A DNA stretch of 64,000 nucleotides, taken from contig JAUWMR010000001.1 of assembly GCA_030613055.1 (NCBI GenBank), positions 124,001 through 188,000 on the forward strand, in the 5' to 3' direction. The notes below the pieces were generated by a model that saw only the letters and a list, made by a program, of their open reading frames with translations, did not search any database and was not told where the DNA came from. A program made the translations under genes and the position numbers. Within the stretch, counting starts at the first letter, position 1. Each line of letters begins with the position of its first letter. Source of the stretch: Desulfobacteraceae bacterium. GTDB lineage: Bacteria > Desulfobacterota > DSM-4660 > Desulfatiglandales > Desulfatiglandaceae. Shown here one piece after another: positions 26,583-56,600 of this stretch.

Positions 26583-27239
26583 TTATCTAATGATGTGAAG
26601 GAACCGTTTCCAGTTCGGCCAGGACCAGTAGATGATAACCGCCTTTCCTTTTAGCTTGTTTAAGGAGACAAACCCCCAATATCTGCTGTCATGGCTGTTA
26701 TCGCGGTTATCGCCCATGACAAAAACTGCGTTTTCAGGAACTGTTACGGGCCCGAAATTCTCATGCCTTACGTATTCGTCCAACACGTGATGATTACATT
26801 CACCCAAGAACTCCAGGTAGTCATCCGCCAGCATAAGATCCCTGTCGCTATATTTCCCGATATATTCCGTCTTGATCCGTTCACTATTTACATGCAATAT
26901 GTCGTTTTTTATTTCAATTCTGTCTCCCGCGACGCCGATAACTCTCTTGATAAAATCCTTCTTTTCATCTTTTGGCCATTTAAAAACTACAATATCACCT
27001 TTTTTCGGCTTTTTAATCTCTATGATGTGGTAGTCAGTAAATGGCACCTTAACGCCGTAGATAAACTTGTTTACCAGAATATGATCACCAATTAAGAGTG
27101 TAGGCTTCATGGATCCAGAAGGAATCTTGAATGCCTGAACAACAAAAGTACGAATAAAAAGGGCAAGAATTACAGCAATTGCCGCCGCTTCAGTATATTC
27201 ACGGAATGTACTCTTTTTTTTCACTGTGTCTCCGGGCAT
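26583..27239 (-). CDS. lepB: Signal peptidase I
   Basis: Inner-membrane serine/lysine protease that cleaves signal peptides from exported proteins. From the ATG at 27239 it is 218 aa, with one transmembrane segment (about 16-36), the catalytic serine S43 in IPSGSMKPTLL, the general-base lysine K98 in FIKRVIGVAGD, and box E GDNRDNSHDSRYWG. The reading frame continues 42 codons upstream to 27365; that extension is hydrophobic and unlike the family. The chosen ATG has GGAGG about 13 bases upstream, a long spacing, so the start is not certain. It is divergent from the pilus operon. Confidence 0.92.
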   Translation of the reverse strand: MPGDTVKKKSTFREYTEAAAIAVILALFIRTFVVQAFKIPSGSMKPTLLIGDHILVNKFIYGVKVPFTDYHIIEIKKPKKGDIVVFKWPKDEKKDFIKRVIGVAGDRIEIKNDILHVNSERIKTEYIGKYSDRDLMLADDYLEFLGECNHHVLDEYVRHENFGPVTVPENAVFVMGDNRDNSHDSRYWGFVSLNKLKGKAVIIYWSWPNWKRFLHIIR

Positions 27240-27441
27240 CTGTTCGACAAAACCTCCTTGAAGTGACGAAATGGAATTTAAACCTCCTGTCATATTTTGT
27301 AAAGTGAATTCTGCTGTCCACTCATAACTATAGATCAGGAGTTTGAGAAAAAAGCCCAAATACAATATATAGTGCTATGATTGCTTTTTGTATACTATAT
27401 ATATATAAATTATATAAAATTTAGTTAATTTAAAAAAATAG

Positions 27442-27744: not shown

Positions 27745-28836
27745 ATGCCTACTCACAAGAAGAATCAATTAATTGGGCTGGATATTGGTAGTCATTCTAT
27801 CAAGCTGGTGGAGATAGATGACAGCAAGAAAGGCAGGATCCTGAAGAACTTCGGAATGACAGGGTTGCCACCTGAGGCCATTGTTGAAGGCTCTATTAAG
27901 GAGATGGAAATTATTTCATCCGCAATAAAGGGTCTCTTTAAAAATTTGAAGGTGAAAAATAAAAATGTGGCAACCTCAATATCCGGTTTCTCAGTGATTG
28001 TAAAAAAGATATCTTTAACAAACAAGGAGGAATCAGATCTCGAAGCTACTATTCAGGACGAAGCCGAACAATATATTCCCTTTGATATTGATGAAGTGAA
28101 CATTGATTTTGATATTTTGTCTGTTAAAGATGAAACAGGTGAGGTGGAAGCCGAAGAGAGCAAAGGTGAACCCTCAGGGCAGATGGAAGTCATGTTGGTG
28201 GCGGCAAAAAAAGACATGGTTGAAGACTATGATAGCCTGCTTCAATTAGCGGGCCTCAATTCTGTTGTCCTTGATGTAGATGCATTTGCCTTGCAAAATG
28301 CCCTCGAAATAGGCGCAGAAGAATCCGAAGGTTGCTGTGCCCTCGTGAATGTGGGCGCCGAGGAATTAGGAATAAATGTAATAAAAAACGACGTGTCTCT
28401 GTTTACCAGGGATTCTTCCTTCGGCGGATCACAGGTTACCGAAGCGATAATGTCACAGTTCAGTGTGCGCTTTAAAGAAGCAGAAAAGATAAAACTGGGA
28501 GGAACCAAAAAAGACAGGGACGAAGGCATTCTCGAAAATATCTTTGTGTCCGTGGTTTCGGAGTGGGTACAGGAAATAAAGCGGGCCCTTGATTTTGTTG
28601 CGAGTACATATCCTGATGAAACAATAGAAAAAATTCTGGTTTGTGGGGGCTCTTGCAGGATCCCTGATTTTCAAGAGTATTTAAAACTGGAAACAGGCAT
28701 AACGGTAGCGGAGCTCAATCCCTTTACAAATCTTATAATAAATGAAAAAATTTTTGACCCCAAGTACTTAAAGTATATAGCGCCGCAAGCTGCTGTCGCA
28801 GTAGGCCTGGCCTTAAGAAGCATCGGTGACAAATGA
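27745..28836 (+). CDS. pilM: Type IV pilus assembly protein PilM
   Basis: Actin-like cytoplasmic ATPase of the type IVa pilus alignment subcomplex; it binds the N-terminal tail of PilN at the inner membrane. The protein is 363 aa with the FtsA/MreB-type phosphate motif LIGLDIGSHSIKLVEID near the start, YIPFDIDEVNIDFDIL, NVGAEELGINV and the adenosine motif ILVCGGSCRIPDFQEYL. The ATG at 27745 begins the conserved region; an open frame before it overlaps the XRE gene and is not used. It overlaps pilN by 4 bases (ATGA). Confidence 0.94.
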   Translation: MPTHKKNQLIGLDIGSHSIKLVEIDDSKKGRILKNFGMTGLPPEAIVEGSIKEMEIISSAIKGLFKNLKVKNKNVATSISGFSVIVKKISLTNKEESDLEATIQDEAEQYIPFDIDEVNIDFDILSVKDETGEVEAEESKGEPSGQMEVMLVAAKKDMVEDYDSLLQLAGLNSVVLDVDAFALQNALEIGAEESEGCCALVNVGAEELGINVIKNDVSLFTRDSSFGGSQVTEAIMSQFSVRFKEAEKIKLGGTKKDRDEGILENIFVSVVSEWVQEIKRALDFVASTYPDETIEKILVCGGSCRIPDFQEYLKLETGITVAELNPFTNLIINEKIFDPKYLKYIAPQAAVAVGLALRSIGDK

Positions 28837-29432
28837 TAAAAATTAATCTCCTGCCCTTCAGGGCCGCAAGAAAACAAGAGAACATAAGAAGGCAGATCAG
28901 CGTCTATCTCCTCTCGGTGGTTTTGATTCTCTTGGTATCAGGATATTCCTGGTGGCATTACAGCAGCAAATTATCGAGGTTAAAGGCAGAAAAAGTCCAG
29001 AAAACAAAGGAACTGGCAACTTATGCAGAGACTACAAAAAAGATCAAGGCCATAAAAACTAAAATCGCTCAAATCGAGGCAAAACTTAAGGTCATCAGAG
29101 GACTTGAGGAGAAGAAGACCGGACCGGTTCTTCTGTTGGACGAGATCTCCACGGCCGTGCCCAAAGACAGAGTATGGCTTTCTGCTCTCTCGGACAAGAA
29201 TGGCATCCTGTCCCTGAGTGGTACGGCACGAGACAACGATACGGTTGCCCTTTTTATGACGAATCTTGAAAAGGCAGCACATATTAAATCAGTTGATCTT
29301 AACTCCACAGTATTGAGAGTCCTAAAAGCACAAAATCTAAATCTCACCAATTTTGTATTGACCTGTAAGACCTATGCATACAAAGAAAAGGCCAAACCAA
29401 AACCAAGGAGAGGTCGTGGAAAGAGGCGCTAA
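28833..29432 (+). CDS. pilN: Type IV pilus assembly protein PilN
   Basis: Bitopic inner-membrane protein of the pilus alignment complex. The N-terminal INLLPFR (residues 4-10) is the conserved PilM-binding sequence. It is followed by a transmembrane helix (about 22-42), a coiled-coil (about 48-90) and a ferredoxin-like periplasmic domain, ending in a Lys/Arg-rich tail. Length 199 aa. The start overlaps the pilM stop, indicating translational coupling. Confidence 0.93.
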   Translation: MIKINLLPFRAARKQENIRRQISVYLLSVVLILLVSGYSWWHYSSKLSRLKAEKVQKTKELATYAETTKKIKAIKTKIAQIEAKLKVIRGLEEKKTGPVLLLDEISTAVPKDRVWLSALSDKNGILSLSGTARDNDTVALFMTNLEKAAHIKSVDLNSTVLRVLKAQNLNLTNFVLTCKTYAYKEKAKPKPRRGRGKRR

Positions 29433-29458: not shown

Positions 29459-30025
29459 ATGAAAGCTGCGTTAATAGAGAAAGTAGAAAAGATTAAGATG
29501 CTTTACAGGATCTTGATCTTTGCAGTAACGCTCCTGGCAATTGGGAGCTCCTTCGTCTTTCTTGTCTATTTACCGAAAACCGAGGCAATCTCAAAGACCA
29601 CCAAGGAAATAGTAAAGCTGAAACAGCAAATCAATAAGGCTAAAATAACGGTAAAAAACCTAAAAATCCTGGAACAAAAACAGGCCCGGATTGACGCCCA
29701 GTTTAAGGAGGCCCTTAAGCTCCTGCCCAACAAGAGGGAAATACCGAGCCTTTTGAGAAGCGTTACACAATTAGGGAAGGATTCCAACCTCAAGTTTCGT
29801 CTTTTCAAGCCTATGAAAGAGAGGCCCAGGGATTTTTTCATTGAAATTCCGGTTTCCGTGCAAGTCACTGGCACCTATCACGACGTGGCCGTATTTTTCG
29901 ATAAAGTGGGCCGCATGAAACGAATTGTAAACATCATAGGGGTGTCCATGTCTCCGGTAAAACCGCTTTCCACAACACTGAATACCAGATATGAGGCCGT
30001 AACTTTCAGATTTAAAGGTGAATAA
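29459..30025 (+). CDS. pilO: Type IV pilus assembly protein PilO
   Basis: Partner of PilN in the inner-membrane alignment complex (188 aa). A short cytoplasmic N-terminus is followed by a transmembrane helix (about 16-38), a coiled-coil rich in Lys (about 42-75) and a periplasmic domain with LPNKREIPSLLRSVTQLGKD, the signature of PilO. It starts 26 bases after pilN. Confidence 0.93.
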   Translation: MKAALIEKVEKIKMLYRILIFAVTLLAIGSSFVFLVYLPKTEAISKTTKEIVKLKQQINKAKITVKNLKILEQKQARIDAQFKEALKLLPNKREIPSLLRSVTQLGKDSNLKFRLFKPMKERPRDFFIEIPVSVQVTGTYHDVAVFFDKVGRMKRIVNIIGVSMSPVKPLSTTLNTRYEAVTFRFKGE

Positions 30026-30950: not shown

Positions 30951-32216
30951 ATGAGGGTTGAATTAAAACTTTTTATAATGGGAATTTTAGTCCTGCTTTT
31001 TGGGATCTCCTGTGGACAGGAAATCCGACAGACGATGACTCCCGTGATTCCAGAGCCTGCCGACGGTCGGCTAAAAAGGGTGGTTATCCTTCCGTTTGCC
31101 GACTATACATCATCTTTTGCCGCTTATGGCAACTGGCGAATGAACGTTCTGGTTCACGAAGCAGTACAGGACGAGTTCTATCGCGCCGGATTTATCCCTG
31201 CGGCGGAAGAAGGTGTTTCAAAATTTCTCACAAACAAAGGGGTGCTTAAACCCACAATTGAGGTTTCCGCAGAAACAGTATCGCTTCAAAGAGAATTGGA
31301 TGCTGAGTGGTCGAATCGACTTAAAACGGAATTCAGAAAGGCGATGTCTCAAAATATTGCCGCTCAGATAAAACGTGGACATATCCAAAAGCCTAATGCC
31401 TTAGACAGCCAGACAATAAAGGAAATGGCCAATACATTTGGAGCCGACTATATTATACGGGGTCGTGTCATCGATTTTCGCATTGCCCACCAGGACACGT
31501 TTAATCCGTTTAAAACCGGTATCCTGCCTGTTGTTCTCAAGGTCGGACAGCGGACTGTTTTTGGGTTAGCAGAAACAGAGACTTATGAAACAATTGACAG
31601 GGAAGCAATAGACAGGGCCTTTGAGCGTGCTAAGGCTGACGACACTGACCTCCGTTATCCGTGGCCGACCAGCATAGACTACAAGCGCCTTAATGCAATG
31701 GTCTGGGGAGGCGGAGGGTTGATAACAGGTGCCCTGGGCCAAAAACAGGGCCTGGTCCCTGAAGCCACTGTCCAGCTAAGGATGCTGGTCCAGGACGCAC
31801 TTACCGGAGAAATCGTATGGCTTAACAGGGCTGAAGTGAGGACCTCCCCGATGTCGGTCTGGGAAAAGGATGATCGTGACGGCCTCTTTGCAACCTCTCT
31901 TAAAAAGACTGTCAAGAGCCTTGTTGACAATTTCGTTGCAACACTCGAATCAGGGGGGATAGCTAAGATTGACAGGCAGGGATTGACCATTGCTGCTGAA
32001 ATGATCAAGGTTTCAAAGAAAGAGGCCTCAGAGGCAAGAGAAGCGGCCGCTGAAGCCAGAAAGGCGGCCGCTAAGGCAAATGAATCCGCGAAACAGTCTA
32101 AAAATGCCGTGGATCAGGCAGGGATCGCTTCTTCTGAGGCAAGGGACGCGGCCCATGATGCCCAAGCTGCGTCCGGAAAGAGTGAAAAAATATTCCTGAA
32201 AATCATCAAGAAATAA
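30951..32216 (+). CDS. Unrecognised lipoprotein of the pilus operon
   Basis: A 421-residue probable lipoprotein: an N-terminal hydrophobic stretch ends FGISC at C21, a slightly atypical lipobox. The body starts with KRVVILPFADYTSS, like the nucleotide-independent alpha/beta fold of CsgG/TolB-N-type outer-membrane proteins, and includes FGADYIIRGRVIDFRI, also reminiscent of that group. A long Ala/Glu/Lys-rich coiled coil occupies about residues 345-415. I cannot assign a named family. Its position between pilP and the secretin genes, 52 bases after pilP, suggests an outer-membrane or peptidoglycan-spanning accessory of the pilus pore. It does not look like PilF/PilW, whose TPRs are absent here. 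Confidence 0.75.
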   Translation: MRVELKLFIMGILVLLFGISCGQEIRQTMTPVIPEPADGRLKRVVILPFADYTSSFAAYGNWRMNVLVHEAVQDEFYRAGFIPAAEEGVSKFLTNKGVLKPTIEVSAETVSLQRELDAEWSNRLKTEFRKAMSQNIAAQIKRGHIQKPNALDSQTIKEMANTFGADYIIRGRVIDFRIAHQDTFNPFKTGILPVVLKVGQRTVFGLAETETYETIDREAIDRAFERAKADDTDLRYPWPTSIDYKRLNAMVWGGGGLITGALGQKQGLVPEATVQLRMLVQDALTGEIVWLNRAEVRTSPMSVWEKDDRDGLFATSLKKTVKSLVDNFVATLESGGIAKIDRQGLTIAAEMIKVSKKEASEAREAAAEARKAAAKANESAKQSKNAVDQAGIASSEARDAAHDAQAASGKSEKIFLKIIKK

Positions 32217-32301: not shown

Positions 32302-33732
32302 ATGGCCAGAATATTTTTAATGGCTCTGATCCTGTGGCTGCAACTGCTCCTTCCGGCATTTGCGGGCGTGATAAGCGATATACGGGTGGGGAAAAAGGCT
32401 CAAAATGAAATTGAAATTATCATTAAGGGGGAGTACTCGTCCTATCGGGCCTTTACCCTTCAATCTCCTTTCAGGTTCATTATTGATCTGGAAGGGGCCC
32501 GGCTAAAGAAAGGCCTGCCCCGTTCCATTGATATCAAAGGGTCCATTATCTCCAGAATACGGGCTGGCCAGGGGGGAAATCGTTCCCGTATTGTTCTTGA
32601 TTCTGCTGACAAGGCATTACTCTTTCATTCCAATATACAGGAAAAAGACCGCGGGTTGATTGTTAAATGCTGGCGCCAGGCAACAGCAGAGACAATGCCG
32701 TCGCATAGCGCTGGATCCTACACCAGCTTCCCTGGTGCACGTCCGGTTGTGCCTCAAAAGGCATTAGATGATCTATTGGGCCGTCCTGAAAAGGCCGCAA
32801 CACTGCAAGGGGATGACACAAAAAAACTTGCCCGATACTCCGGCGATAAGATAACCCTGGACTTCTATAAAACCGATATTCACAATGTTTTTCGACTATT
32901 CGCAGAGATTAGCGGGAAAAATATTATTGTAGATGAAAGAGTCAAGGGAGAGCTTACACTGGCCCTGACAGGAGTTCCCTGGGATCTGGCCCTTGATATT
33001 ATTTTAGAACAAAAAAACCTGAGAAAAACAGAAAAGCTCAACACCTATATCATTCTCCCCATGCCTGGAAAGGCCACAGGGAAAGGCGAACTGGTTGTTC
33101 ACAAGGTCTCTGATGAAGTCCTTCAGCCGGCAAAATTAAGAAAGCTTAAAAAGGAGAACCGTCAAAAAGCCCAGAACCTTATTCTTGAAGGCCATAACCT
33201 TGAAACACAGGGAAATAAAGAAGAGGCCCTTAAAATCTATGAAAAGGCGTATAATTACTGGAAGAACAACATCGATCTGATTAAAAAGACTGCCTATCTC
33301 CACTATATATCAGGTAATTTTGCGAGGAGTTATTTCTATGCAAAAGAGGCCTTAAAAATAAACCGGAAAGACTCAGAGGCGGCCCTTTATGCTGCCCTTC
33401 CAGCCGTACGGATGGGCAAAAAACATGAAGCAAAAATCTTATTCAAGGCGGCCATATCCGGAAGCCCCAAGATCCCCGAGGCATATTATAACTACGGTCT
33501 ATTCCTTGAAAGACAGAAAGACTATGATAATTCCCTGTATGTCTATGAAAAATATGAAACGCTTTTCGGCCCATCCTTGCAGCTCAGTTTGGCCATAGCC
33601 AGGCTTTACGAAGCACAGGAAAGAAATAAGGATGCCTGTAATAAATATACAGAGCTTCAATTTTCAGGGTTTTCCATAGATGAAGATACAGAACGTTTGA
33701 TTCAAACAAAGATCAAAACCCTTTGTGATTAG
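32302..33732 (+). CDS. AMIN-STN-TPR protein (secretin N-terminal modules on a separate chain)
   Basis: An exported 476-residue protein with a signal peptide (about 1-21). It has an AMIN domain (about 22-120, ISDIRVGKKAQNEIEIIIKG), a secretin/TonB short N-terminal (STN) domain (about 185-262, DIHNVFRLFAEISGKNIIVD and VPWDLALDIIL) and then tetratricopeptide repeats (about 285-470). AMIN plus STN is the N-terminal half of PilQ, normally in one polypeptide with the secretin pore. Here the chain continues into TPRs instead and the pore follows as the next gene 9 bases later. AMIN binds peptidoglycan; TPRs could serve as a built-in pilotin. Confidence 0.87.
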   Translation: MARIFLMALILWLQLLLPAFAGVISDIRVGKKAQNEIEIIIKGEYSSYRAFTLQSPFRFIIDLEGARLKKGLPRSIDIKGSIISRIRAGQGGNRSRIVLDSADKALLFHSNIQEKDRGLIVKCWRQATAETMPSHSAGSYTSFPGARPVVPQKALDDLLGRPEKAATLQGDDTKKLARYSGDKITLDFYKTDIHNVFRLFAEISGKNIIVDERVKGELTLALTGVPWDLALDIILEQKNLRKTEKLNTYIILPMPGKATGKGELVVHKVSDEVLQPAKLRKLKKENRQKAQNLILEGHNLETQGNKEEALKIYEKAYNYWKNNIDLIKKTAYLHYISGNFARSYFYAKEALKINRKDSEAALYAALPAVRMGKKHEAKILFKAAISGSPKIPEAYYNYGLFLERQKDYDNSLYVYEKYETLFGPSLQLSLAIARLYEAQERNKDACNKYTELQFSGFSIDEDTERLIQTKIKTLCD

Positions 33733-33741
33733 GGGGAAAGC

Positions 33742-35307
33742 ATGAAAAACAAAAGCAATATCGTCTTATCTTTCATATTGTTCATTGTCCTGACCGGGTG
33801 TTATTACAACACTCAACAGGTAGTTGACAAACCGCAGGATGTTCCTATGCTGGAGCCCCCTGCCCCACCTCCGCCGGTTGATAAAAAGGCCATAACCAGG
33901 TCTTCTTCGAAAATCGAAGATGAGGCCGGTTACAAAATAAGGCCACTGGACATTAAGATAAAGGCAGGAAAGCCCTACCTTCCTGTGGGTGCGGAAATTA
34001 TTTCAAAACATGGAAAAGTGTCTTTAACCCATGTTATTAAACAGATGCTGGACCTTAAAGGCCTTTCCGTGAGCTGGGCCGATGATGTGGATCAGGCAAA
34101 GCTTGTGGATTGTGATATCAAGCCGGAGGACAATTTCTGGGACGCTCTTGATAACATTCTGCGGCAGGTGGACTATTTCTATGAAACACAGGAAGATACC
34201 GTCATTGTCAAGTACAAAGAGACCAAAAAGTATCACCTGAGCATGCCCAACATCACTGAAACGTTTCAATCCACCTTAGGTGGCAACATGCTGCCCAGTA
34301 CCGGAACCGAAGGCTCCTCCGGCCTGCAGGCCTCAGCTACGCTAACGGCCAACAGCCCGGAACTTGACTTCTGGAAGAATATCGAAGATGCCCTGAAGCA
34401 GATAGTAAGTTGTGACGGCTGTCCACCTCCTGTTATCGAAAAATCATTAGGCTTGATTACCATAAGCGCGCCCCAGAGGATCCATAAGGATGTTGACAGT
34501 TATCTTTCTTCAATAAAAAAGGAGGCATACAAACAGGTAATTATCGAGGCAAAAATCCTGGAAGTCATATTAACGGAGGATCATGAGACGGGGATTGACT
34601 GGAGTTCGGTCTTTTCTTCCAACGCCGGCGGCGGGTTTAATTTCCAAGTAAATAACCCGTCGAACATATTGTATAAAGGGGGATTAAAGGTTGCCGAGTA
34701 TCTAAGCAATATCACATTAGCCGCTCCACTAAACTGGAATGTCGCGCTTGATGCCTTTTCCGAATATGGAGATACCAGTATTCTTGCAAATCCCAAACTC
34801 CATCTCCTGAATGGTCATTCCGCCGTATTAAACGCCGGACAGGAGATAGTCTATCTTTCCGGATGCGCAGTTACTGAATCTGACGCAGGAAACCGCAGCT
34901 CCGAACCTGAAACGAGTTCCGTACACCTGGGTCTTGCAATTGGACTTAAGGCAAATATTATTAGCACCGAAGAGGTTATTTTATATGTGTTTCCTGCCCT
35001 TACCAGAGGGAATCTGGTAAACGTCGGCGCAGCCACGCTTTGCGGCCAGATTCAGGCCCCTCAGATAAATGTGAGAGAAATGGCCACCCATGCCAGGGTG
35101 AGGGATGGTGAAATACTTATTATAGGAGGCCTTATTGATAAACAAGATATAATAACCCGCAATAAAATCCCTTTATTGGGAGACATTCCCCTTATTGGGA
35201 AGCTTTTCAGGCATGAAGATATAGACAAACAAACAACGGAACTGGTAATAATGCTGAGGCCAAAGATCGTAACCGGCGGGCATCTTATAGAATCAAAGAC
35301 ACAGTGA
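33742..35307 (+). CDS. Lipoprotein secretin of the type IV pilus (MshL/PilQ-like)
   Basis: Outer-membrane secretin pore for the pilus fibre, 521 aa. It starts with a lipoprotein signal ending VLTGC (C20), then a Pro-rich linker, an STN-like domain (about 95-165) and the secretin domain from KQVIIEAKILEVILTEDHET to the end. Conserved secretin features are present: ILANPKLHLLNGHSAVLNAGQ, EMATHARVRDGEILIIGGLI and GDIPLIGKLFRHED. The lipoprotein type and lack of AMIN domains are more MshL-like than PilQ-like; the AMIN/STN part is supplied by the preceding gene. It is the last gene of the operon. Confidence 0.92.
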   Translation: MKNKSNIVLSFILFIVLTGCYYNTQQVVDKPQDVPMLEPPAPPPPVDKKAITRSSSKIEDEAGYKIRPLDIKIKAGKPYLPVGAEIISKHGKVSLTHVIKQMLDLKGLSVSWADDVDQAKLVDCDIKPEDNFWDALDNILRQVDYFYETQEDTVIVKYKETKKYHLSMPNITETFQSTLGGNMLPSTGTEGSSGLQASATLTANSPELDFWKNIEDALKQIVSCDGCPPPVIEKSLGLITISAPQRIHKDVDSYLSSIKKEAYKQVIIEAKILEVILTEDHETGIDWSSVFSSNAGGGFNFQVNNPSNILYKGGLKVAEYLSNITLAAPLNWNVALDAFSEYGDTSILANPKLHLLNGHSAVLNAGQEIVYLSGCAVTESDAGNRSSEPETSSVHLGLAIGLKANIISTEEVILYVFPALTRGNLVNVGAATLCGQIQAPQINVREMATHARVRDGEILIIGGLIDKQDIITRNKIPLLGDIPLIGKLFRHEDIDKQTTELVIMLRPKIVTGGHLIESKTQ

Positions 35308-35328: not shown

Positions 35329-35374
35329 CGTGTCATTCGTGGTAAAAATTATACCCCGATTTATTGAGCAGATA
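35329..35374. repeat. Short interspersed repeat, second copy
   Basis: CGTGTCATTCGTGGTAAAAA followed by CCCCGATTTATTGAGC matches 9091-9137 in the same orientation and 45800-45846 inverted. It ends inside the 3' end of the HAD gene (35361-35996), whose stop is derived from it or overlaps it. Confidence 0.6.
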
Positions 35375-35996
35375 CCCCTAATATGTCTCTGATCTCTAAA
35401 AGATGTTCTATCTTCCAGGGGGTTTCCAATTCTTCGTTCCTGTAAGAAACAAAATGCACCCCCGCAGCTTTGGCCGTCTCATAATCGACCTGAGAATCAC
35501 CCACATATAATGACTGTGCCGGACGGATTTGAAAAAAGTCGAGTATCTTGAAAACAGCTTCGGGATGGGGTTTGGGTTTTTCAACATCTAATGACGACAC
35601 CACAATGTCAAAAAACTCAGCAAGCCCGAAAAAATCAAGAACATCCCCTATGGTGTTGCTCCTGTTGGTCGCAATGGCCAGGCCAAATCGAGATGCAAGC
35701 CCCCCCAACAGGACCTTAAGCCCTGGTTCAATAATCATATCATTTATAAATGGCCAATAATCCATCTCCATTCTGTACGACTGGGTCTCCTCTACGAAAG
35801 GTGTGCCTTCAAAGAGATAGCGCACGGACTCATCGGCAGTGTGCATATGGACGAAATCGACCTTATCTGCTGTCATGGGGGGAAGACGAAAGCGCTCGAG
35901 AAGGTGATTGTAGAAATTGATATTGGCCTGCCTGGAATCAAACATGACACCATCGCAGTCAAAAATGACGGCCGATATTTTTTTTAGCGTATTCAT
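35361..35996 (-). CDS. HAD-family phosphatase (phosphoglycolate-phosphatase-like)
   Basis: A 211-residue haloacid dehalogenase-type hydrolase. Motif I is FDCDGVMFDS (nucleophile Asp), motif II is ATNRS, motif III is the lysine of VEKPKPHP, and motif IV is VGDSQVDYETAKAAG. The cap is the helical C1 type, as in Gph and beta-phosphoglucomutase, but the substrate cannot be read from sequence. It is convergent with the pilus secretin and divergent from nadB. Confidence 0.87.
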   Translation of the reverse strand: MNTLKKISAVIFDCDGVMFDSRQANINFYNHLLERFRLPPMTADKVDFVHMHTADESVRYLFEGTPFVEETQSYRMEMDYWPFINDMIIEPGLKVLLGGLASRFGLAIATNRSNTIGDVLDFFGLAEFFDIVVSSLDVEKPKPHPEAVFKILDFFQIRPAQSLYVGDSQVDYETAKAAGVHFVSYRNEELETPWKIEHLLEIRDILGVSAQ

Positions 35997-36167: not shown

Positions 36168-37781
36168 ATGGAAATAAAAACGGATTTTTTAGTCATCGGC
36201 AGCGGCATTGCCGGACTTAGCTTTGCCTTGCAGGCAGCCAGATCCGGGACAGTGGCCATCGTGACAAAAAAAGAAAAGATGGAAGGATCCACAAATTATG
36301 CCCAGGGTGGGATTGCATCTGTCCTTGATCCGGAGGACAGTTTTAATCTCCATATCAATGATACGCTTAAGTCCGGGGACGGTCTATGCCATGAGGATAT
36401 TGTCAAGATGGTTGTCCGTGATGGACCACAAAGGATCAGGGAGCTTATCACCATGGGAGTGCGTTTCTCGCATCAGAGGAAAAACAAACAAAACCTTGAT
36501 CTGGGACGTGAAGGGGGCCATTCTAAGCGCCGTATCGTACATACCAAGGACCTCACCGGCAGGGAGGTTGAAAGCATCCTTCTTGAGCGAGCCGAAGAAA
36601 ATAAGAATATCCGGATCTATGAAAATCACATGGCCATTGATCTCATAACTAAATCCAAAATGATAAAACGCGGCATTTTAACCAGCGAATCCAGCCAGAC
36701 CTGTTGGGGGGCGTACGTACTTGATCATAATCAGAATCAGGTTTTGACCTTTTTGTCCAGGATTACCGTATTGGCTTCTGGTGGAGCCGGTAAGGTTTAC
36801 CGCTATACGACCAACCCTGATATTGCTACAGGTGACGGGATTGCAGTTGGTTATCGTGCCGGGGTAAAGGTCGCCAATATGGAATTTGTCCAGTTTCATC
36901 CCACATGTCTTTATCATCCCCTGGCAAAGAACTTCCTGATATCAGAGGCGGTTCGCGGAGAAGGGGGTATCCTGGTAGATAAGGAAGGAAAACGATTCAT
37001 GGAAAAGTATCATCCCTTAAAAGATCTTGCATTCAGGGATGTTGTGGCCCGTTCCATAGACATGGAACTCAAAAAGTCCGGTGATGATTGTGTCTATCTG
37101 GATATCAGCCACAGGTCAAAGGATTTTATCAAAGACCGTTTTCCCCATATCTACAAGACGTGCCTTAAGTTTCATATTGATATTACAAAAGAGCCCATAC
37201 CCGTAGTCCCCGCGGCCCATTATGTCTGCGGTGGACTCCTGACAGACGAAAATGGGCTTACAAATCTAAATAATCTATATGCCATTGGCGAGGTAGCCTG
37301 TACCGGCCTGCACGGCGCAAACCGCTTAGCCAGCAACTCCCTCCTTGAGGCCCTTGTTTTTGCGAGACGTGCCGCAACAAAGTCATCTCAGGATTTTGAG
37401 GAAAAAAAAGACCTTCCATTTCCCGGGGCACCACTATGGGATCCCGGCAGCGCAACAGACAGCGAGGAACTGGTGGTTGTCTCACATAACTGGGATGAGA
37501 TTAGAAGGTTTATGTGGAACTATGTGGGTATTGTAAGGACCAATAATCGTCTGGCACGGGCAAAAAGGAGAATAGACAATATCCAGAAAGAGATAAAAGA
37601 GCATTACTGGGATTTTATCGTCACAAGGGATCTTTTAGAACTCCGTAACATTGCCCAGGTAGCGGAACTTATTATCACCTCTGCCTCGCTCAGAAAAGAA
37701 AGCAGGGGGCTTAATTACAATCTGGATTATCCTTTGCGCGATGACAGGCACTGGAAGCGGGATACAGTGATATGGATTTAG
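36168..37781 (+). CDS. nadB: L-aspartate oxidase
   Basis: FAD enzyme that oxidises aspartate to iminoaspartate, the first step of bacterial NAD synthesis; in anaerobes fumarate replaces oxygen as acceptor. The 537-residue protein has the FAD motif VIGSGIAGLSFA (residues 9-20), TNYAQGGIASVL, GGHSKRRIVHTKDLTG, EFVQFHPTCLY, SEAVRGEGGIL, PAAHYVCGG and GANRLASNSLLEALVFA. The FHPT and active-site arginine pattern separates NadB from succinate dehydrogenase. nadA and nadC are not in the window. It ends 2 bases before the stop of the convergent small qrc-associated gene. Confidence 0.95.
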   Translation: MEIKTDFLVIGSGIAGLSFALQAARSGTVAIVTKKEKMEGSTNYAQGGIASVLDPEDSFNLHINDTLKSGDGLCHEDIVKMVVRDGPQRIRELITMGVRFSHQRKNKQNLDLGREGGHSKRRIVHTKDLTGREVESILLERAEENKNIRIYENHMAIDLITKSKMIKRGILTSESSQTCWGAYVLDHNQNQVLTFLSRITVLASGGAGKVYRYTTNPDIATGDGIAVGYRAGVKVANMEFVQFHPTCLYHPLAKNFLISEAVRGEGGILVDKEGKRFMEKYHPLKDLAFRDVVARSIDMELKKSGDDCVYLDISHRSKDFIKDRFPHIYKTCLKFHIDITKEPIPVVPAAHYVCGGLLTDENGLTNLNNLYAIGEVACTGLHGANRLASNSLLEALVFARRAATKSSQDFEEKKDLPFPGAPLWDPGSATDSEELVVVSHNWDEIRRFMWNYVGIVRTNNRLARAKRRIDNIQKEIKEHYWDFIVTRDLLELRNIAQVAELIITSASLRKESRGLNYNLDYPLRDDRHWKRDTVIWI

Positions 37782-46335: not shown

Positions 46336-46365
46336 TTGACGTTATGGTATGGATTTTGCTATAAA
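46336..46365 (+). promoter_or_regulatory. Candidate sigma-70 promoter of the minor-pilin operon
   Basis: TTGACG (46336-46341) and TATAAA (46360-46365) are separated by 18 bases, 35 bases before the likely first pilin start. It overlaps an in-frame ATG at 46349, which argues against that ATG as the true start. No sigma-54 type -24/-12 element was found. Confidence 0.55.
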
Positions 46366-46399
46366 ATTTAGGTTAGCGGGAATTTTCATGGAGCAAATG

Positions 46400-46906
46400 A
46401 TGAAGAAAAACAGGGCAAGGATAAAAAAGGAACACGGTTTTACATTAATGGAGGTATTGGTAGTGATTGCATTAATCGCTATCCTTTCAGCCATTGCCGT
46501 GCCCAACTTCTTTACCTGGCTTCCGAAGTATAGACTAAAAAGCGCCGTGACCGATCTTTTTTCCAACATGCAGTTGGTAAAACTACAGGCCGTTAAGACA
46601 AACCAAAGTGTAAGCATCACATTTTTAGCAGGTCCCGAACGATATCAATTTACAATCCTGGGAGATACAAGAACTATTTCTTTGAGTGACACTTACAGAA
46701 GCGGCATCATGTTTGGACGACCTGCCGCGGACCCAGGAGATACAGTTACATATGTTTCGGACATAGTAACATTCAATTCCCGCGGCATCAGTAATTGGGG
46801 ATATGCCTATCTGACAAACTCTGATAATACCGGCTATTACCGTGTAGGCGCCTTAATCTCGGGTGTTATCAGATTAGAAAAATGGGTCAACGGTAGTTGG
46901 CAGTAA
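46400..46906 (+). CDS. Minor pilin, FimT/GspH family
   Basis: A type IV pilus minor pilin/pseudopilin (168 aa) that primes pilus assembly. The prepilin leader ends at HG, and the mature N-terminus FTLMEVLVVIALIAILSAIA is the class III signal with Glu at position 5. A beta-rich GspH/FimT-like domain follows. The ATG at 46400 has GGAG 6 bases upstream; in-frame ATGs at 46349, 46388 and 46397 are less likely. Confidence 0.88.
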   Translation: MKKNRARIKKEHGFTLMEVLVVIALIAILSAIAVPNFFTWLPKYRLKSAVTDLFSNMQLVKLQAVKTNQSVSITFLAGPERYQFTILGDTRTISLSDTYRSGIMFGRPAADPGDTVTYVSDIVTFNSRGISNWGYAYLTNSDNTGYYRVGALISGVIRLEKWVNGSWQ

Positions 46907-46951
46907 GTTAAGCAGGATTGATTTTTACAGTTTTTATTATGGTAAAGTCAT

Positions 46952-47629
46952 ATGCATGATAAAAGTAGAGGTTTTACACTGATCGAACTCATGGTAGCCA
47001 TGGCCATATCGGGCGTTGTTCTTGCCGGGATATACACCACCTACCAGGCTCAACAGGAATCATACATCGTCCAGGAACAGGCTTCGGCAATGCAGCAAAA
47101 CATCAGGGCCGCCATGTATCATCTCGAGAAAGACATCAGGATGGCGGGATATGATCCAACGAATAATTTAGGACCAAAATTTTTAATTGCAAACTCTTTT
47201 GAATTGCAAATTCAGATGGACCTCAATGAAAATGGAACAGTATTAGGTTCCGGAACCGACCCTAATGAACGGGCACGGTACAAACTTACGAATGATGGTA
47301 ATGACGACGGAATCGCTGATGGCTCCCCATGCCGTTTAGGGAAAGAAATTTGGGGTGGTGGCCTTCAATCAGTGGCCGAAAACATTGACGCGCTCAACTT
47401 TGTTTATCTCGATAGAGATGGCGCGGTCACGGCCGTCCGTGCAGACATAAGGGCGGTTCGGGTAACCATTGTGGCCAGGGCCGCAAGATTTGAGAGGGGA
47501 TATGTAAACAATACGCAGTACTTCAACCAGAATCCAGATGGAGCGGAGGTTATTTTACCTTCACAAGGCGACAACTTCCGGCGTAAGAGACTGAGCGTAC
47601 ACATCGACTGCAGGAATATGGGAATGTAA
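46952..47629 (+). CDS. Minor pilin PilW-like
   Basis: A prepilin of 225 aa: short leader MHDKSRG, then FTLIELMVAMAISGVVLAGI with Glu5. The following text (TTYQAQQESYIVQEQASAMQ, and LEKDIRMAGYDP) is typical of PilW-type proteins. It forms part of the tip complex with PilV, PilX and PilY1. It starts 45 bases after the FimT-like gene and is followed by pilV after 13 bases. Confidence 0.9.
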   Translation: MHDKSRGFTLIELMVAMAISGVVLAGIYTTYQAQQESYIVQEQASAMQQNIRAAMYHLEKDIRMAGYDPTNNLGPKFLIANSFELQIQMDLNENGTVLGSGTDPNERARYKLTNDGNDDGIADGSPCRLGKEIWGGGLQSVAENIDALNFVYLDRDGAVTAVRADIRAVRVTIVARAARFERGYVNNTQYFNQNPDGAEVILPSQGDNFRRKRLSVHIDCRNMGM

Positions 47630-47642
47630 GGAAAATGAAATC

Positions 47643-48071
47643 ATGAAAAATAATCAAAAGAAAACCAACCACATGACACCAGGGCATCCGGCTATGAGTA
47701 AAGAGGCAGGCTATACACTCATTGAAGTCATTATCGCCATGGCAATCCTGAGCATTGGCCTTCTTGCCGTCGGTTATATGCAGATCACGGCCATTAACAG
47801 CAACACAACCGGAAGTCGAATTACAGAGGGAACCACCGTTGCCTTAGGCAAGATGGAAGAGCTTATTACCCTCAGGTATACACACGCCGACCTGGCTGCC
47901 GGAAATCACCCTGATCCAAACTCGAATGATCATCCTGGTTTTAGTCAAACCTGGGATGTCGTTGATAACAGCCCTGTCGCAAACGCCAAGCGCATAACCG
48001 TGACAGTAAGATGGGCAGAAATAGGCAGGCAGAGACGAACGCAGCTTATGTTCATTAAACCACAGATTTAA
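47643..48071 (+). CDS. Minor pilin PilV-like
   Basis: A prepilin of 142 aa with a longer leader (about 23 residues), cleaved before YTLIEVIIAMAILSIGLLAV, the PilV signature. The rest carries NSNTTGSRITEGTTVALGKM, where PilV proteins keep a conserved helix. Part of the minor-pilin operon. Confidence 0.9.
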   Translation: MKNNQKKTNHMTPGHPAMSKEAGYTLIEVIIAMAILSIGLLAVGYMQITAINSNTTGSRITEGTTVALGKMEELITLRYTHADLAAGNHPDPNSNDHPGFSQTWDVVDNSPVANAKRITVTVRWAEIGRQRRTQLMFIKPQI

Positions 48072-48108
48072 TTACGATGAGGAATCCGCAAAAAGGCGCA
48101 AAAATATC

Positions 48109-48231
48109 GTGACTACTCACGTAGTCAGGCTGAAGGTGTTTAGACTGAAGATAGAAGGTATCAGTACTGAGATAAAAGGACTGAGGGCTAAGTAAAAAGC
48201 TTAGGCCCCGCTAAATAACCTGAGCAGTTAC
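48109..48231. repeat. Repeat element between pilV and pilX
   Basis: Ends GTGACTACTCACG and CCTGAGCAGTTAC. The first 43 bases are the exact reverse complement of 42788-42830. This 123-bp copy is the inverted, shorter relative of the element at 42640-42830. Confidence 0.8.
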
Positions 48232-48257
48232 AAAATATCTTTGTAGGGGAAAAACTA

Positions 48258-48803
48258 ATGAAGGATGACGTTCTAAATAAAAAAAATGAAGAAGGGTCGG
48301 TTTTGATCATATCCCTGATCATGATTGTCTTGCTTACTTTGTTAGGGATAACCGCCACGAGGACATCAACCATCGAGGTGCAGATCGCCACAAATGATAA
48401 GTTTTATAAGCAAAACCTTTGTGTGGCCGATGGCACGGTTATGGAATGCGTCCAGACGCTGGAAAACGCCGGCCCTGCGGTTAAAGAAATGACTATCGGC
48501 CGGGATCCGTGGATAATGGATGATGTCGATAATGACAACATCGGTATCTGCGTAAGCGGGGTAACGGTTTCAAGCAATATGACCAATGCTGCTGCCCGTG
48601 ATGACACCAACTGGCCCGTCGCATGCATCCAGGCATCACTTGATCCGAACAACAGCGAGTTCATGGCCTTTTACGGGGGCGTTGTTCCCGGCAGCTCTTT
48701 AGACATGACCAAACCCACCATTCACGGTTTTAGCGTTTTTGGCCGGAGCCAGCGTAACAACGGCCGTGTTGTCGTTGGAGTCGGCTACAGAAAAGCTATT
48801 TAG
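48258..48803 (+). CDS. Minor pilin PilX-like
   Basis: A 181-residue protein with a short leader ending EEG and a hydrophobic N-terminus SVLIISLIMIVLLTLLGITA, the PilX form that lacks the usual Phe/Glu of prepilins. Next is ATRTSTIEVQIATNDKFYKQ, typical of PilX. It normally lies directly before pilY1; here four toxin-antitoxin genes and a remnant intervene. Confidence 0.87.
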   Translation: MKDDVLNKKNEEGSVLIISLIMIVLLTLLGITATRTSTIEVQIATNDKFYKQNLCVADGTVMECVQTLENAGPAVKEMTIGRDPWIMDDVDNDNIGICVSGVTVSSNMTNAAARDDTNWPVACIQASLDPNNSEFMAFYGGVVPGSSLDMTKPTIHGFSVFGRSQRNNGRVVVGVGYRKAI

Positions 48804-50601: not shown

Positions 50602-53600
50602 ATGAGAAAATTAACAACGCTAATAATACTTTTGTCCGTTTTCATTATGACGCCTTCCATTGCAAATGCGATTACAGTTTCAATCTCAGATGTAGCTCAG
50701 AATGAAAACAACGGAAATATGACTTTCACCGTTACAATTACAGATGACACTGTTACTGGCAATGCCAAATTTAATTATGCGACAGTTGATGGTACAGCCA
50801 CAACGGGTGACAATGACTATACAAGTGCCACAGGTACAGTAACATTTAACAATGGGGACCCTGTGGGCGCGACCAGGACATTTGATGTACCTATCACCGG
50901 AGACACCAAAGTTGAAGATGATGAAACTTTCACGGTTACCCTGACTCCTCAAGGCACTGATACTGTTGCCGACAGTCCTGCGACGGGCACCATAAACAAT
51001 GATGATGCGGCAACGCTTGCGATAGATGACGTTACGCATAACGAGGGCAACGCCGGGGGAACGACCTACACCTTTACCGTAACCCTTACGGGAGACGTGG
51101 ACCAGGCATTCACTGTGGCCTACGCTACGGCAGACGACTCCGCCACGGCACCCGACAATGCCTACACGGCGGTAGCAGCGACCGCTCTGAATTTTGCGGG
51201 TACGAACGGAGAGACCCAGACCTTTAATATTACGGTCAACGGCGACACAAAGGTTGAGGCGGACGAGAGGTTTTTCGTGAACCTGTCGAACGTCCTGGCT
51301 GGCGGCAAGGACGTAACCATCAGTGATGCCCAGGGTGATGGCAATATCACGAATGATGATACGGCAACGCTTGAGATAGATAACGTTACGAATAACGAGG
51401 GCAACGCCGGGGGAACGACCTACTCCTTTACGGTAACCCTTACGGGAGCCGTAGATCAGGCGTTTACTGTGGACTACGCTACGGCAGACGACTCAGCCAC
51501 GGCAGCCGACAATGACTACAATGCGGTGGCGGCGACCGCTCTGAATTTTGCGGGTACGAACGGAGAGACCCAGACCTTTAATATTACGGTCAACGGCGAC
51601 ACAAAGGTTGAGGCGGACGAGAAGTTTTTCGTGAACCTGTCGAACGTCCAGGCTGGCGGCAAGAATGTAACCATCAATGATCCCCAGGGTAATGGCAATA
51701 TCACGAATGATGATGCGGCGACGCTGACGATCGCAGGCGTGACCCTGAACGAGGGCAGCGGCGGCGGCACGACGGATTTTGACTTCACGGTGACGCTGGA
51801 CAATGACGTTCAAGACGGGTTTACAGTTGCTTACACGACGGACGATGGTACGGCCACGGTCGCCGACGGTGATTACACAGACAACGACAGCTCTCTGAAC
51901 TTTGCAGGGACTGCCGGCGAATCGCATACAATCACGGTTGCGGTGACCGCGGATGGTGTGGTCGAGGCAGACGAGGCTTTCACTGTGGCGCTGGGTACGG
52001 TGACGCCTGTTAGTGCCGATGCGGGTGACATTACCAAGGTTGGCAGTCCTGCGACGGGCACGATCACGAATGATGACAGATATCAAATTACAATAGATGA
52101 TCCCACTGTTAATGAGGGTGTGGGAAACGCTACTTTTACCGTATCAATCTCCCCGGCACTCCAGGCAGGCGATACAGTTACGGTCGATTATGCAACGTCA
52201 AACGGCTCTGCTGTAGCACCGGGGGATTATACAACAACCAACGGTACCCTTACAATCAACACTCCCGGGGCCACAACCGGTACTTTCACCGTACCTATTA
52301 TTAATGACACTACTGTAGAAAATGCCGAAAACTTTGTCGTCGATCTCTCCACTTCCACCCCTGCTGCCACCACCAATATCAGCGATTCCCAGGGAACATG
52401 TACGATAAATGACAATGACGAGTATGTATTTTCCATAGCGGATGCTACTGCTGTAACCGAGGGTACGCCTGCGAGTTTTCGTATCTCTGTGACGCCGGTA
52501 GTTGCGACCGGTCATGTGGTGACGGTGGATTATTCTACGACTCCTGGGACGGCCACGGGGGGTGGCACTGATTACACGAATGCGGTGAGTGTACCGGCGA
52601 CGGTGTCTCCTGGTGCTACTTTCGTGGATGTTACTGTGGCGACCAATGATGATGCTCTGGTTGAGGATCAGGAGCAATTTACTGTAACCCTGGATCCTGG
52701 CAGCGCCAGTTCGAGTGTGGGCAGTGCGAGTATCAGCAGTGTTGTGGGTGATGATACAAGCACAGGCACGATCAACGACAATGACACGGCAACGGTGGGT
52801 TTAACGTTGGCGAGTGATGGTGCGGAGCCGGCGACGAGCGCGACGTTCACGGTGACGATGACGAAGACGAACAACACGGGCAGTCCGATCACGGTAAGCT
52901 ACATCTTTACTGATGGTACGGCGACCGGTGGTGCCGGTGTTGCTGGAGACGATTACGATAACACGACGACGAGTGTTCCGATTCCCAACGGCAGTGCCAC
53001 GGCGACGATCACGGTTCCTGTTTTTGACGATGCGCTGGTGGAGGCGACCGAAGCCTTTCAGGTGACGTTGACGTCGACGGATAATGGCCAGGTGACGGTA
53101 TCTGGCGGCGGGCCGATCAGTGCGGACATCACGAGTGATGATGCGGCAACGCTTGCGATAGATGACGTTACGCATAACGAGGGCAACGCCGGGGGAACGA
53201 CCTACACCTTTACCGTAACGCTTACGGGAGCCGTAGATCAGGCGTTTACTGTGGACTACACTACGGCAGACGACTCAGCCACGGCAGCCGACAATGACTA
53301 CAATGCGGTGGCGGCTACCGCGCTGAATTTTGCGGGTACGAACGGAGAGACCCAGACCTTTAATATTACGGTCAACGGCGACACAAAGGTTGAGGCGGAC
53401 GAGAGGTTTTTCGTGAACCTGTCGAACGTCCAGGCTGGCGGCAAGAATGTAACCATCAGTGATGCCCAGGGTGACGGCAATATCACGAATGAGGACTTAT
53501 ATAGTATAGACGCCAGCGCCGGACCCAACGGGGCCATCGACCCATCGGGGGTTTCCAGCGTAACCTGCGGATCCCAGCCCACCTACTACATGACCCCTTA

Positions 53601-56600
53601 CGAGGGCTATCATGTGTCACATGTGATGGTGAACGGCGCTTCCGTCGGCGGAGTCGGCGTCTATACCTTTGATCCTGTTGTAAACGACCAGTCCATCTAT
53701 GCGGTTTTTGATTGGGGAGAGTCCAACAAGAGCTGTGTTGAGGTGAACCAGCAGCAGAACGCCGGGCAGTGGAACCTCCTGGGAACGTACAACTTCGTCA
53801 AAGGTAAAGGGGCTTTTGTGACCATAACCCGGGTGGACGGCGACGAAAACAGCACCTGCGCCGATGCGGTCAAGTTTGTTCGAACGAGTGACGGAACAGA
53901 GATCATCGTTGACAACGCAGACGCGGATTACACGGAAACCGGGAACTGGACCGATTCCTCAGCGCAGAATTCCTATCCCTCCGGCGTCGCGTCGCGATAC
54001 TCCGATGATGGTGGCGCCATTGCCGCCTGGACCCCGGACCTCCCCTCCTCGGACACCTACGATGTCTATGCCTGGTGGACCACGGCCGGAACGCGCGCCC
54101 AGCATGCGCCCTACTGCGTCTACGGCTTATCGGGCAAAATCGTCACCGCCACAGCCGGCATACACGGGTATATTATCTCATCCGGCACCACCGTGGGACC
54201 GGATGCAAGCCATGCATTCACGTTCGATTCAGGGTCAAACGCTGTGTTTACCATCAGTGCAGAGACAGGCTATGTCATACAGGAAGTGCTTGTAGATGAT
54301 CTATCCGCTGTCAACGATTGCGTGCCCCCTGCGACCGGGGCTACTGCCACCACCTACACCTTCACCAATATCAGTGCATCCCATAGCATCGAGGCGACCT
54401 TTGAGGACCACAGCGACACCTGTACCAATGCCACGCCCGTCACCTGCGACGGGGTGTATGACGGAAAAATCAGTCCTGAGGACGACTGGGATTATTTTAA
54501 ACTGGAAACCGGAGGAGGTGTTTACACCATCTGGACAGAGGGGGAAGACGACACGTACGGGTATCTTTTGGACACCAGTTGCGTGACCGACAGCCCCATA
54601 GCCGAAGACGACAACAGCGGGCCCAACGAGAGATTTGAAATCGCGGATGTGGAACTGGCCGCGGGCACCTACTACATTGCCGTCAGACAGGACAACGACG
54701 GCAGTCTGAACCCTGATTTGGACTATACGCTTCATCTCTCCTGCCAGCATATCATCCGGGCCTCGGCCCAGTCGGGCGGGGACATTGTTCCGGGCGGAGA
54801 CAACATCGTCAATCACGGCGCGAATATCATATTCACCATAACGGCTGATCCCGGCAACTCTATCGCGGATGTACTGGTAGACGGCCAGTCCATGGGCGGG
54901 GTGACCACCTATACCTTCACCAATGTCACTGCCAATCATACAATCATCGCTCAGTTCACAATGCCCCCGGGCCTGTGCAACGATATATCGGACCAGCCCC
55001 TGGATACCATACAAACAGGGGCCCCTGCCAATATCGTGTTTGTTATTGACGATTCCGGCAGCATGGACTGGGAGATCATGACATCAGAAAATGACGGCAA
55101 ATTTGAGAACTATGAATATATCTTTGACGATCCCGGGGATCATGTCTACAAGACAGGGACAAACTCACAGATATTGGAAGAAGACGAAGAGGATCGAAAG
55201 CTCTGGAAGTCCCAGTGGTACATCATCAACAAAATGTACTATAATCCAAAGATGTATTACATACCGTGGCCTACACTGACCGACGCAGATCCTGATAACC
55301 CCAGGTCCCACCCGATCCAAAGCACCCCCACCTTTGACATAAATGCGACATTTGACACGGTGGGGCAGGCCTATATCGTAGAAAACGAGGGTACATTTGA
55401 TGAAAATGACATATTCCTACCCTCTGGAGGGACCCGCTTCGTCGTGACAGGCACATGGCGCAGGTCTTCCGTGGATTACTGGCACGGGCCGGACCCTGCC
55501 AGGTCCATTTATTCCAACGACCTCGGTGCCACCGCCACATGGACCACCGCCCTTCCCGCGGCGGGGGATTACGAGGTCCTGGCCTGGTGGACAGCCACGG
55601 ATGGCCGGGCCCGCCATGTGAATTACACCATCCATGCGGCAGGCGGTGACGAGATTAAGGCTAATCAATCCCACCAAAATAATGGCGGGCAATGGAACAG
55701 CCTGGGCACTTACACTTTCGGGACCACCGGCAGTGTAACCGTGACCCGGGAAGACGATCAAGATCACACCTGTGCCGACGCCATCGCATTTGTCCCGACA
55801 GTTGGCGCAACCACCATTAATATTAAGAGGGCCCATTACTATACTTGGGCCGATCTGGATGGGGACAACGCTCTGGACAGCGGTGAAACCGTGTATTTCG
55901 TCAATCTTGACAGTGGCACCTCAACTATCCAGTATTATGTGCTGGATGTGAGTGATGACATGATTGAGGCCGGCGACCTGACCCCCATTGCCGAGGCCGA
56001 TGTTGCTGTGGAGGCCCGGCCCAAGAACCAGGACGGCTCTTTCCGCACCTATGCCGAGGACAAACAGAACTTCGCCAACTGGTTCTCCTTTTACCGGAGG
56101 CGGGAGCTTGCCGCTACCAACGCCATCGCCAATGTGATTGTCCAGATGCAGGGCGTGAACATCGGTTACCGGAGTATTAACGGATATCTGATTCAACCCG
56201 TGCTGCCGGTTCATGTGGGGACAGAGGATGAGACCAACGCCCTCCTGAACAAACTGTATACCTTCGGCATCATCGTGCATCAGGCATCTACCCCGCTGAG
56301 AGCCGGGCTTCGTGAAACGGGTAAGTATTTTGACAAGGACGACGGTGATGATGGCGGCGTCGGCGATTCTCCTATTGCCAGTGCTGAAGACGGTGGTGAA
56401 TGCCAGCAGAACTTCGCCATCATGTTCACGGACGGGCACTATAACGGAGGTGCGCCGGGATTCGCGAACATCGACGGGGACCACGGAGTCCCCTATGAGG
56501 ACGATCAGCCTAACACGTTAGCCGATGTGGCCATGTACTACTATGAGAATGACCTGGCCGACCTCTTGGAAAACGACGTGCCGCCCAACCCTGCAGATGA

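Follow-up and report, generated by a model that had tools for sequence, protein, structure and literature searches.

The locus considered here lies in a stretch of 64,000 nucleotides, called the window throughout, from the draft genome (4.26 Mb) of a Desulfobacteraceae bacterium (assembly GCA_030613055.1, contig JAUWMR010000001.1, C84 in our numbering, positions 124,001 to 188,000). Central to it is a pilus operon in which pilM, pilN, pilO and pilP are followed by an accessory lipoprotein gene and then by two genes, one for an exported protein with AMIN, N0 and tetratricopeptide repeat (TPR) domains, for which the label AST is coined here, and one for a separate secretin. AST together with its secretin is referred to as the two-gene form, and the single-chain PilQ as the one-gene form. 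The anatomy of this pair, and its exchange with PilQ, are put forward here with high confidence from the sequence comparisons that follow. The operon is predicted to consist of:

27745..28836, + strand: pilM (PilM_2 8.7e-74, TIGR01175 above cut-off), taken from the first ATG of an open reading frame listed from 27625
28833..29432, + strand: pilN (PilN 1.4e-17)
29459..30025, + strand: pilO (PilO 5.5e-40), the sole PilO match of the genome
30158..30898, + strand: pilP with a 12-residue insert in its C-terminal domain (PilP 7.6e-9)
30951..32216, + strand: accessory lipoprotein, CsgG/PelC/GNA1162/FlgT-like (Foldseek; weak FlgT_M, LpoB below cut-off)
32302..33732, + strand: AST, with signal sequence, AMIN, PilQ-type N0 and TPRs and without a lipobox (Pfam, TIGR02515, structure model)
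33742..35307, + strand: MshL-type lipoprotein secretin with an N0-like region of its own (Secretin domain, TIGR02519, lipobox)

AST has 476 aa, and the secretin gene starts 9 bases after its gene. A sequence-only reading of the window had proposed that the AMIN and STN modules of PilQ stand on a separate exported protein that runs on into TPRs, and Pfam, TIGR02515 and the signal sequence bear this out. Pfam places AMIN at residues 26-121 (E 5.7e-15), a GspD-like N0 at 186-221 (6e-8), STN at 207-253 (4.8e-4, under its cut-off) and several TPR models within 285-453. The PilQ model TIGR02515 covers residues 181-255 only, corresponding to model positions 1-75 (1.3e-17; 63.9 bits, the cut-off of 284.35 not being reached). 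The N-terminus is hydrophobic and ends in AFA-G, with no Cys among the first 45 residues and hence no lipobox. The predicted structure (mean predicted local distance difference test score, pLDDT, 82.3; predicted template modelling score 0.50) comprises a beta-domain at 22-124, an N0-like domain at 183-253 and helices at 271-475, the last of which may be read as five TPR pairs and a cap. Residues 177-257 align with the N0 of one-gene PilQs over 81 columns (hhalign, E 4.4e-27), and the solved structures hit by the AST profile include PilQ (3jc8 residues 339-572, E 2.4e-38) along with many TPR proteins; with the AST model, Foldseek returned PilQ (4av2) at rank 1, TPR proteins next, and PilF at ranks 26 and 48. 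Among 30 AST proteins, N0 and STN were each matched in 28 and AMIN in 19, so that AMIN, though present in the window, is not constant and by this count appears to be a dispensable piece of AST. At seven distant two-gene loci (L113-L117, L119, L120) AST has just 355-416 aa, with N0 near the N-terminus and apparently without AMIN.

The secretin, of 521 aa, carries a Secretin domain (E 2.9e-36), and its best NCBIfam model is TIGR02519 (MshL) at 221.5 bits, short of the cut-off of 250.2; TIGR02515 gives 100.7 bits, likewise short of its cut-off (284.35). A lipobox, VLTGC, ends in Cys20, and a Cys is aligned there in 27/27 homologues. The best model and the lipobox thus agree with the earlier assignment of this gene to an MshL-type lipoprotein secretin. 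Its profile matches GspD, PilQ and BfpB among solved structures, and it aligns with those one-gene PilQs over residues 263-513 only, without a match to the PilQ-type N0; a whole-profile comparison with AST gives 8.7%. The sequence-only reading had also given the secretin a short STN-like region. Pfam STN has no match on it, but residues 78-165 alone align with PilQ N0 over 73 columns (63.5%, E 6.8e-5) and with AST N0 over 71 columns (21.6%), seven negative comparisons staying at or below 4.6%, and an STN/N0-like region belonging to the secretin itself is therefore moderately supported. Neither an MshE-type ATPase nor a platform gene lies beside the secretin in the window.

The spread of the pair was followed in two samples, namely 61 relatives with the own genome counted in (37 from the family, 24 from the rest of the order) and 395 genomes of the phylum, in which a match of at least 177 bits was called AST, every one extending into the TPRs. 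AST was found in 12 of the 61 relatives (8/37 in the family, 4/24 in the rest of the order) and, with the best four candidates per genome scored, in at least 35 of the 395, spread over 14 family codes; a further 15 matches, of at most 135 bits, do not reach the TPRs or just begin them, as expected of PilQ. All 35 AST genomes match the secretin profile at 1e-60, and in 34 of them AST and the secretin gene adjoin on a single contig, the adjacency being taken from match positions in G301, G321, G393 and G411 and from reading the loci in the others; in the 35th (G259) both genes lie at contig ends. In this survey of the Desulfobacterota, AST is thus linked to secretins, rather than standing alone, wherever the contigs are long enough to tell, the outcome on which the sequence-only reading had staked itself. 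Within the order, the secretin lies 3' of AST in 9/9 loci with a contig long enough. The loci of three AST-bearing genomes (G002, G038, G041) are interrupted by contig ends, and at L055 and L057 the contig ends inside AST; in G038 the secretin start is 22 bases from a contig end, and G002, 84% complete, has no match to the two-gene secretin type (best 91 bits). In G022 (L054) the contig stops 327 bases past AST, with no secretin start readable there, and the secretin gene begins 100 bases from the end of another contig, facing it. An unlinked AST in this genome was considered; the two genes face each other from contig ends, and a contig break is likely though not proven. A scan of named genomes with a single sequence returned one close relative.

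Moreover, pilM, N, O and P precede AST in all 10 order loci reaching far enough and in 20/20 distant loci. Exactly one strong PilO occurs in 42 of the 43 two-gene genomes, six of which also have a second match of at most 33 bits; G041, with its contig cut inside AST, has none. The single strong PilO and flanks matching those of one-gene loci rule out two separate systems in one genome.

The window secretin also has kin without AST. The secretin profile is matched at 1e-60 (207-374 bits) in 53 of the 360 non-AST genomes, and the AST-less loci read, 18 of these 53, all lie in operons like those of mannose-sensitive haemagglutinin (MSH) pili, where the secretin gene adjoins a platform gene and one for an MshE-type ATPase. 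These 18 of 18 loci indicate that the wider family of the window secretin is that of the MSH pili and that AST is not its constant companion. Four MSH-like loci (L178, L181, L182, L188) encode a protein of 343-362 aa that matches the TPR region of AST and is possibly MshN-like. AST and a strong PilQ-model match tend to exclude each other, TIGR02515 being matched at 1e-60 in 7/35 AST genomes against 270/360 others (Fisher p 1.7e-10, uncorrected for kinship).

How the two forms relate was read from the order's own loci, 12 two-gene (counting the window) and 28 one-gene, and from 20 two-gene and 18 one-gene distant loci. The window shares the following flanks with one-gene loci of the order:

26583..27365, - strand: lepB (Peptidase_S26 1.9e-56; synteny)
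35361..35996, - strand: haloacid dehalogenase (HAD)-type hydrolase gene (HAD_2 4.3e-32; synteny)
36168..37781, + strand: flavoprotein gene (FAD_binding_2 1.7e-99; synteny), which we take to be nadB-like

In the order, lepB lies divergent and upstream of pilM in 6/12 two-gene and 16/28 one-gene loci, and the HAD gene downstream in 6/12 and 12/28, many of the others being cut by contig ends. Such synteny indicates that one-gene PilQ and the two-gene form sit at the same locus within the order. In a secretin-domain tree of 55 rows, one of them (L109) long and partial, 29 two-gene secretins split at 100/100 from the remainder, made up of 23 one-gene PilQs and three further secretins of the own genome. 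With 18 MSH-type secretins added and L109 removed, the 28 two-gene secretins still form one side (100/100), and forcing the order's two secretin forms into one clade is rejected (p 0.0007). A tree of PilM, N and O (44 rows), on the other hand, places the 11 two-gene loci of the order with its 26 one-gene loci and apart from 7 loci from outside it (100/100), and one clade of all 14 two-gene loci is rejected (p 0.004). The conflict between the secretin and PilMNO trees indicates that the secretin module has been exchanged, one PilMNO lineage having carried two unrelated secretin modules. Further, lepB adjoins pilM in 17/20 distant two-gene and 0/18 distant one-gene loci, and with both forms in the window's order. 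Because this adjacency marks the distant two-gene but not the distant one-gene loci, we lean towards an ancestor of the order with the two-gene form, PilQ with a Tgl-type partner arriving later. The sequence-only reading had spoken of TPRs added to PilQ; the repeats are there, but the direction may be wrong.

PilP seems to belong to the exchanged module, because secretin N0 is a reported binding partner of its globular domain (PMC4471445). The 12-residue insert in its C-terminal domain marks the order's two-gene loci (11/11) and none of its one-gene loci (0/28); in the PilP tree, a group supported at 100/97 takes in 25 of the 28 PilPs from one-gene loci. Three one-gene loci (L155, L167, L170) hold a third kind of PilP, whose linker is long and charged and which has two additional residues where the insert would be. 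As for the accessory lipoprotein, Cys21 is kept in 14/14 homologues, and its gene lies between pilP and AST in 7/12 order loci and 3' of the secretin in 7/20 distant loci; a long Ala-rich helical tail is seen in the family's members and not in distant ones. Foldseek matches it to CsgG, GNA1162, FlgT and PelC from a low-confidence model (mean pLDDT 67.6), by which it could form a collar like the ring-forming CsgG, PelC and FlgT. The model being so uncertain, a mechanism drawn from this fold was set aside.

A second difference between the forms concerns the pilotin. A TPR lipoprotein gene follows pilQ in 17/28 one-gene loci of the order and the secretin in 0/12 two-gene loci. The proteins after pilQ at 16 one-gene loci gave an alignment (A7; Cys20 invariant, one row with masked residues), with which 77 genomes were searched, 43 of them one-gene (G008 classed so by its open frame alone) and 34 from the 43 two-gene genomes; a full-length match started at or before model position 15, ended at or after 182 and reached at least 140 bits. 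Of the one-gene genomes, 40/43 have a full-length Tgl/PilF-type TPR lipoprotein (order 24/25, others 16/18); the three without a match are G144, G304 and G025, and in the last the contig stops 230 bases past pilQ. Among the best 34 candidates per genome, such a lipoprotein was found in 0/34 two-gene genomes (order 0/11, others 0/23), which gave internal TPR matches of at most 122 bits. The family model TIGR02521 (Tgl/PilF/PilW), with a cut-off of 154 bits that no protein in the 61 genomes exceeds, Tgl-type ones included, and a score of 33.5 for AST, was dropped as too noisy a pilotin detector and replaced by A7.

Lipid anchoring of the secretin, also part of the sequence-only reading, holds as far as the lipobox goes but does not distinguish the split, since the order's one-gene PilQs carry a lipobox-like Cys in 28/28 loci (19 by strict pattern, nine by eye). 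Nor does it explain the missing pilotin in this order, where the PilQs are lipidated too and yet the Tgl-type lipoprotein is kept. The AST TPRs might account for its absence. The earlier proposal that they could replace the pilotin is thus supported by correlation (40/43 against 0/34), and we regard a pilotin role for them as evenly balanced.

The window operon is the only PilMNOP operon of the genome. Further pilus genes are predicted downstream in the window:

46349..48803, + strand: four minor-pilin-like genes, GspH/FimT-, PilW- (a label given here), PilV- and PilX-like (N_methyl in three, PilX_N in the fourth)
50602..58938, + strand: PilY1-like tip protein of 2778 aa (T4P_PilY1 4.4e-44)
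59825..61648, + strand: pilus assembly ATPase of TfpB/PilB type (NF053534 661 bits, cut-off 850; TIGR02538 513.5, cut-off 675.65)

The PilY1-like protein bears eight Calx-beta stretches and three golvesin C-terminal domain stretches, and between the PilX-like gene and pilY1 (48739-49660) lie genes for a Polbeta-type nucleotidyltransferase and a HepT-like ribonuclease, likely a toxin-antitoxin pair. With the minor pilins, PilY1 and the ATPase in the window and PilT encoded elsewhere, the type IVa pilus set of PilMNOP, minor pilins, PilY1, PilB and PilT is all matched in the genome. AMIN is matched twice, in AST and in a protein on C54, and four secretins are encoded, the window's, two of GspD type and one on C12. 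The last belongs to an MSH-like operon (L068, G000:C12:50000-68000) with an MshEN ATPase, an AAA ATPase and a weak PilM_2 match; this secretin (6794-8362) is PilQ-type by TIGR02515 (335 bits, above cut-off) and reaches just 98.6 bits with the MshL model. It is the own genome's match among the seven AST genomes that match TIGR02515 at 1e-60, and the secretin types of the two operons look swapped relative to each other.

Taken as a whole, these findings point, with a probability of about 0.6, to the pair forming the gate in the outer membrane for the genome's type IVa pilus, where two proteins would take the part of PilQ and its TPR pilotin and be exchangeable for them. In the one-gene form, PilQ would contribute AMIN, N0, N1 and the barrel, and the Tgl/PilF-type lipoprotein the lipid and the TPRs; in the two-gene form, AST would contribute AMIN, N0 and TPRs, and the secretin the lipid, its own N0-like region, N1 and the barrel. 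Exported AST would be soluble in the periplasm, with AMIN binding peptidoglycan, a hold that has been proposed for PilQ (PMC10653833), and its N0 would dock onto PilP of the inner-membrane complex. Its TPRs would hold secretin monomers until the ring forms, the work of Tgl, whose TPRs have been modelled as holding PilQ secretin monomers (PMC10653833), and the secretin would reach the outer membrane by its own lipid, insert and form the ring. More tentatively, and at slightly less than even odds, the outer-membrane end (PilP head, N0 piece, barrel and TPR assembly factor) would be exchangeable, one version having the pilotin TPRs moved onto a PilP-docking, wall-binding N0 piece that is a separate polypeptide from the barrel, so that Tgl/PilF would not be needed, and whole modules would have been replaced in place while PilMNO was kept.

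Several points weigh against this reading. AMIN is absent from about one third of AST proteins. The PilP insert is missing from 3/3 distant two-gene loci in the PilP alignment, which rules out its being tied to AST everywhere, and the branch that sets the order's 11 two-gene PilPs to one side has weak support (78/16). For PilMNO, one clade of the order's 11 two-gene loci is not rejected (p 0.254; 0.195 in a smaller set), and, although the trees look mixed, we do not claim that the two-gene form arose more than once in the order. The ATPase falls under the family cut-offs of both models. In the pilotin comparison, the full-length criterion was fixed after the list had been inspected, scoring covered the best 34 candidates per genome, and alignment A7 had itself been built from 16 of the 24 order genomes that came out positive, the other nine order genomes being positive in 8/9. 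AST matches the Tgl type at E 1.2e-15, and MamA and designed TPRs match equally well or better, so that this similarity is unspecific; nor is the correlation proof that the AST TPRs bind the secretin. Finally, many type IV filament systems are reported to need no pilotin if the secretin is a lipoprotein (PMC4471445).

That last report leads to the strongest of the alternatives, in which AST serves as a permanent structural adaptor instead of a pilotin. Bound to the wall, it would form a ring in the periplasm and, through N0 and TPRs, connect PilP with a secretin whose lipid lets it assemble unaided. This alternative would fit the secretin lipobox in 27/27 homologues, the reported dispensability of pilotins for lipidated secretins (PMC4471445) and an AST that has docking and wall-binding domains and no lipobox, yet the order's lipidated one-gene PilQs coexist with a Tgl-type lipoprotein in 24/25 genomes, and we consider it possible but rather unlikely. 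Much less probable is that the operon serves a different type IV filament system, be it MSH-like or for secretion, and not the type IVa pilus. The secretin is indeed nearest MshL, and its AST-less kin stand in MSH-like operons at 18/18 loci; the operon, however, shows the type IVa arrangement of PilMNOP without an adjoining ATPase, the PilMNO tree joins it to the one-gene PilQ loci (100/100), with which it shares flanks, and the genome has a distinct MSH-like operon, on C12, that includes a secretin and an ATPase. A frameshift or assembly error that split one PilQ, for all that draft assemblies are common among the compared genomes, can practically be dismissed, because a pair of genes, each with a signal sequence of its own, is seen again in 34/35 AST genomes, several of them single-contig, and the secretin is of a different clade from PilQ rather than its C-terminal half.

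The type IVa gate reading matters since work on pilus secretins has dealt with single chains, in which docking to the inner membrane falls to an N0 ring. Where N0 and the barrel are separate proteins, the roles in docking, wall binding and assembly could be removed singly, and the in-place exchange, PilP included, would amount to a natural experiment on which parts must match.

Among the titles and abstract openings of the open-licence literature, subscription papers lying outside the scope, no description of an AMIN-N0-TPR protein with a separate secretin was recognised, and the pair appears to be a variant, previously undescribed in the literature so examined, of a known kind of secretin. 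PilQ with a TPR pilotin (PilQ/Tgl of M. xanthus, PilF of P. aeruginosa, PilW of Neisseria) likewise has AMIN, N0, barrel and TPRs after pilMNOP; here, in contrast, AMIN and N0 are off the barrel chain, the TPRs are with them and not on a lipoprotein, and the barrel comes from another clade. MshL of MSH pili is likewise a lipoprotein secretin and is accompanied by MshN, a TPR protein, and the MSH-type secretins are the nearest relatives sampled. The window secretin nevertheless stands in a clade apart from the 18 MSH-type ones, has no ATPase or platform gene adjoining, and has a partner that carries N0 and usually AMIN. Lipidation of the secretin is shared with liposecretins such as HxcQ; the operon described here differs in having an additional protein that bears N0. 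The Tad secretin RcpA is reported to depend on the TPR protein TadD (PMC10499894; PMC6668835), which is by description a lipoprotein, whereas AST is non-lipidated and has N0 and usually AMIN. Finally, co-option of secretins by other machines, such as the type III secretion system, is described as common, and the secretins of type IVa pili as one clade, suggesting little transfer between systems (PMC6668835); set against that survey, another secretin clade occupies the PilQ slot in 14 family codes of the phylum sample.

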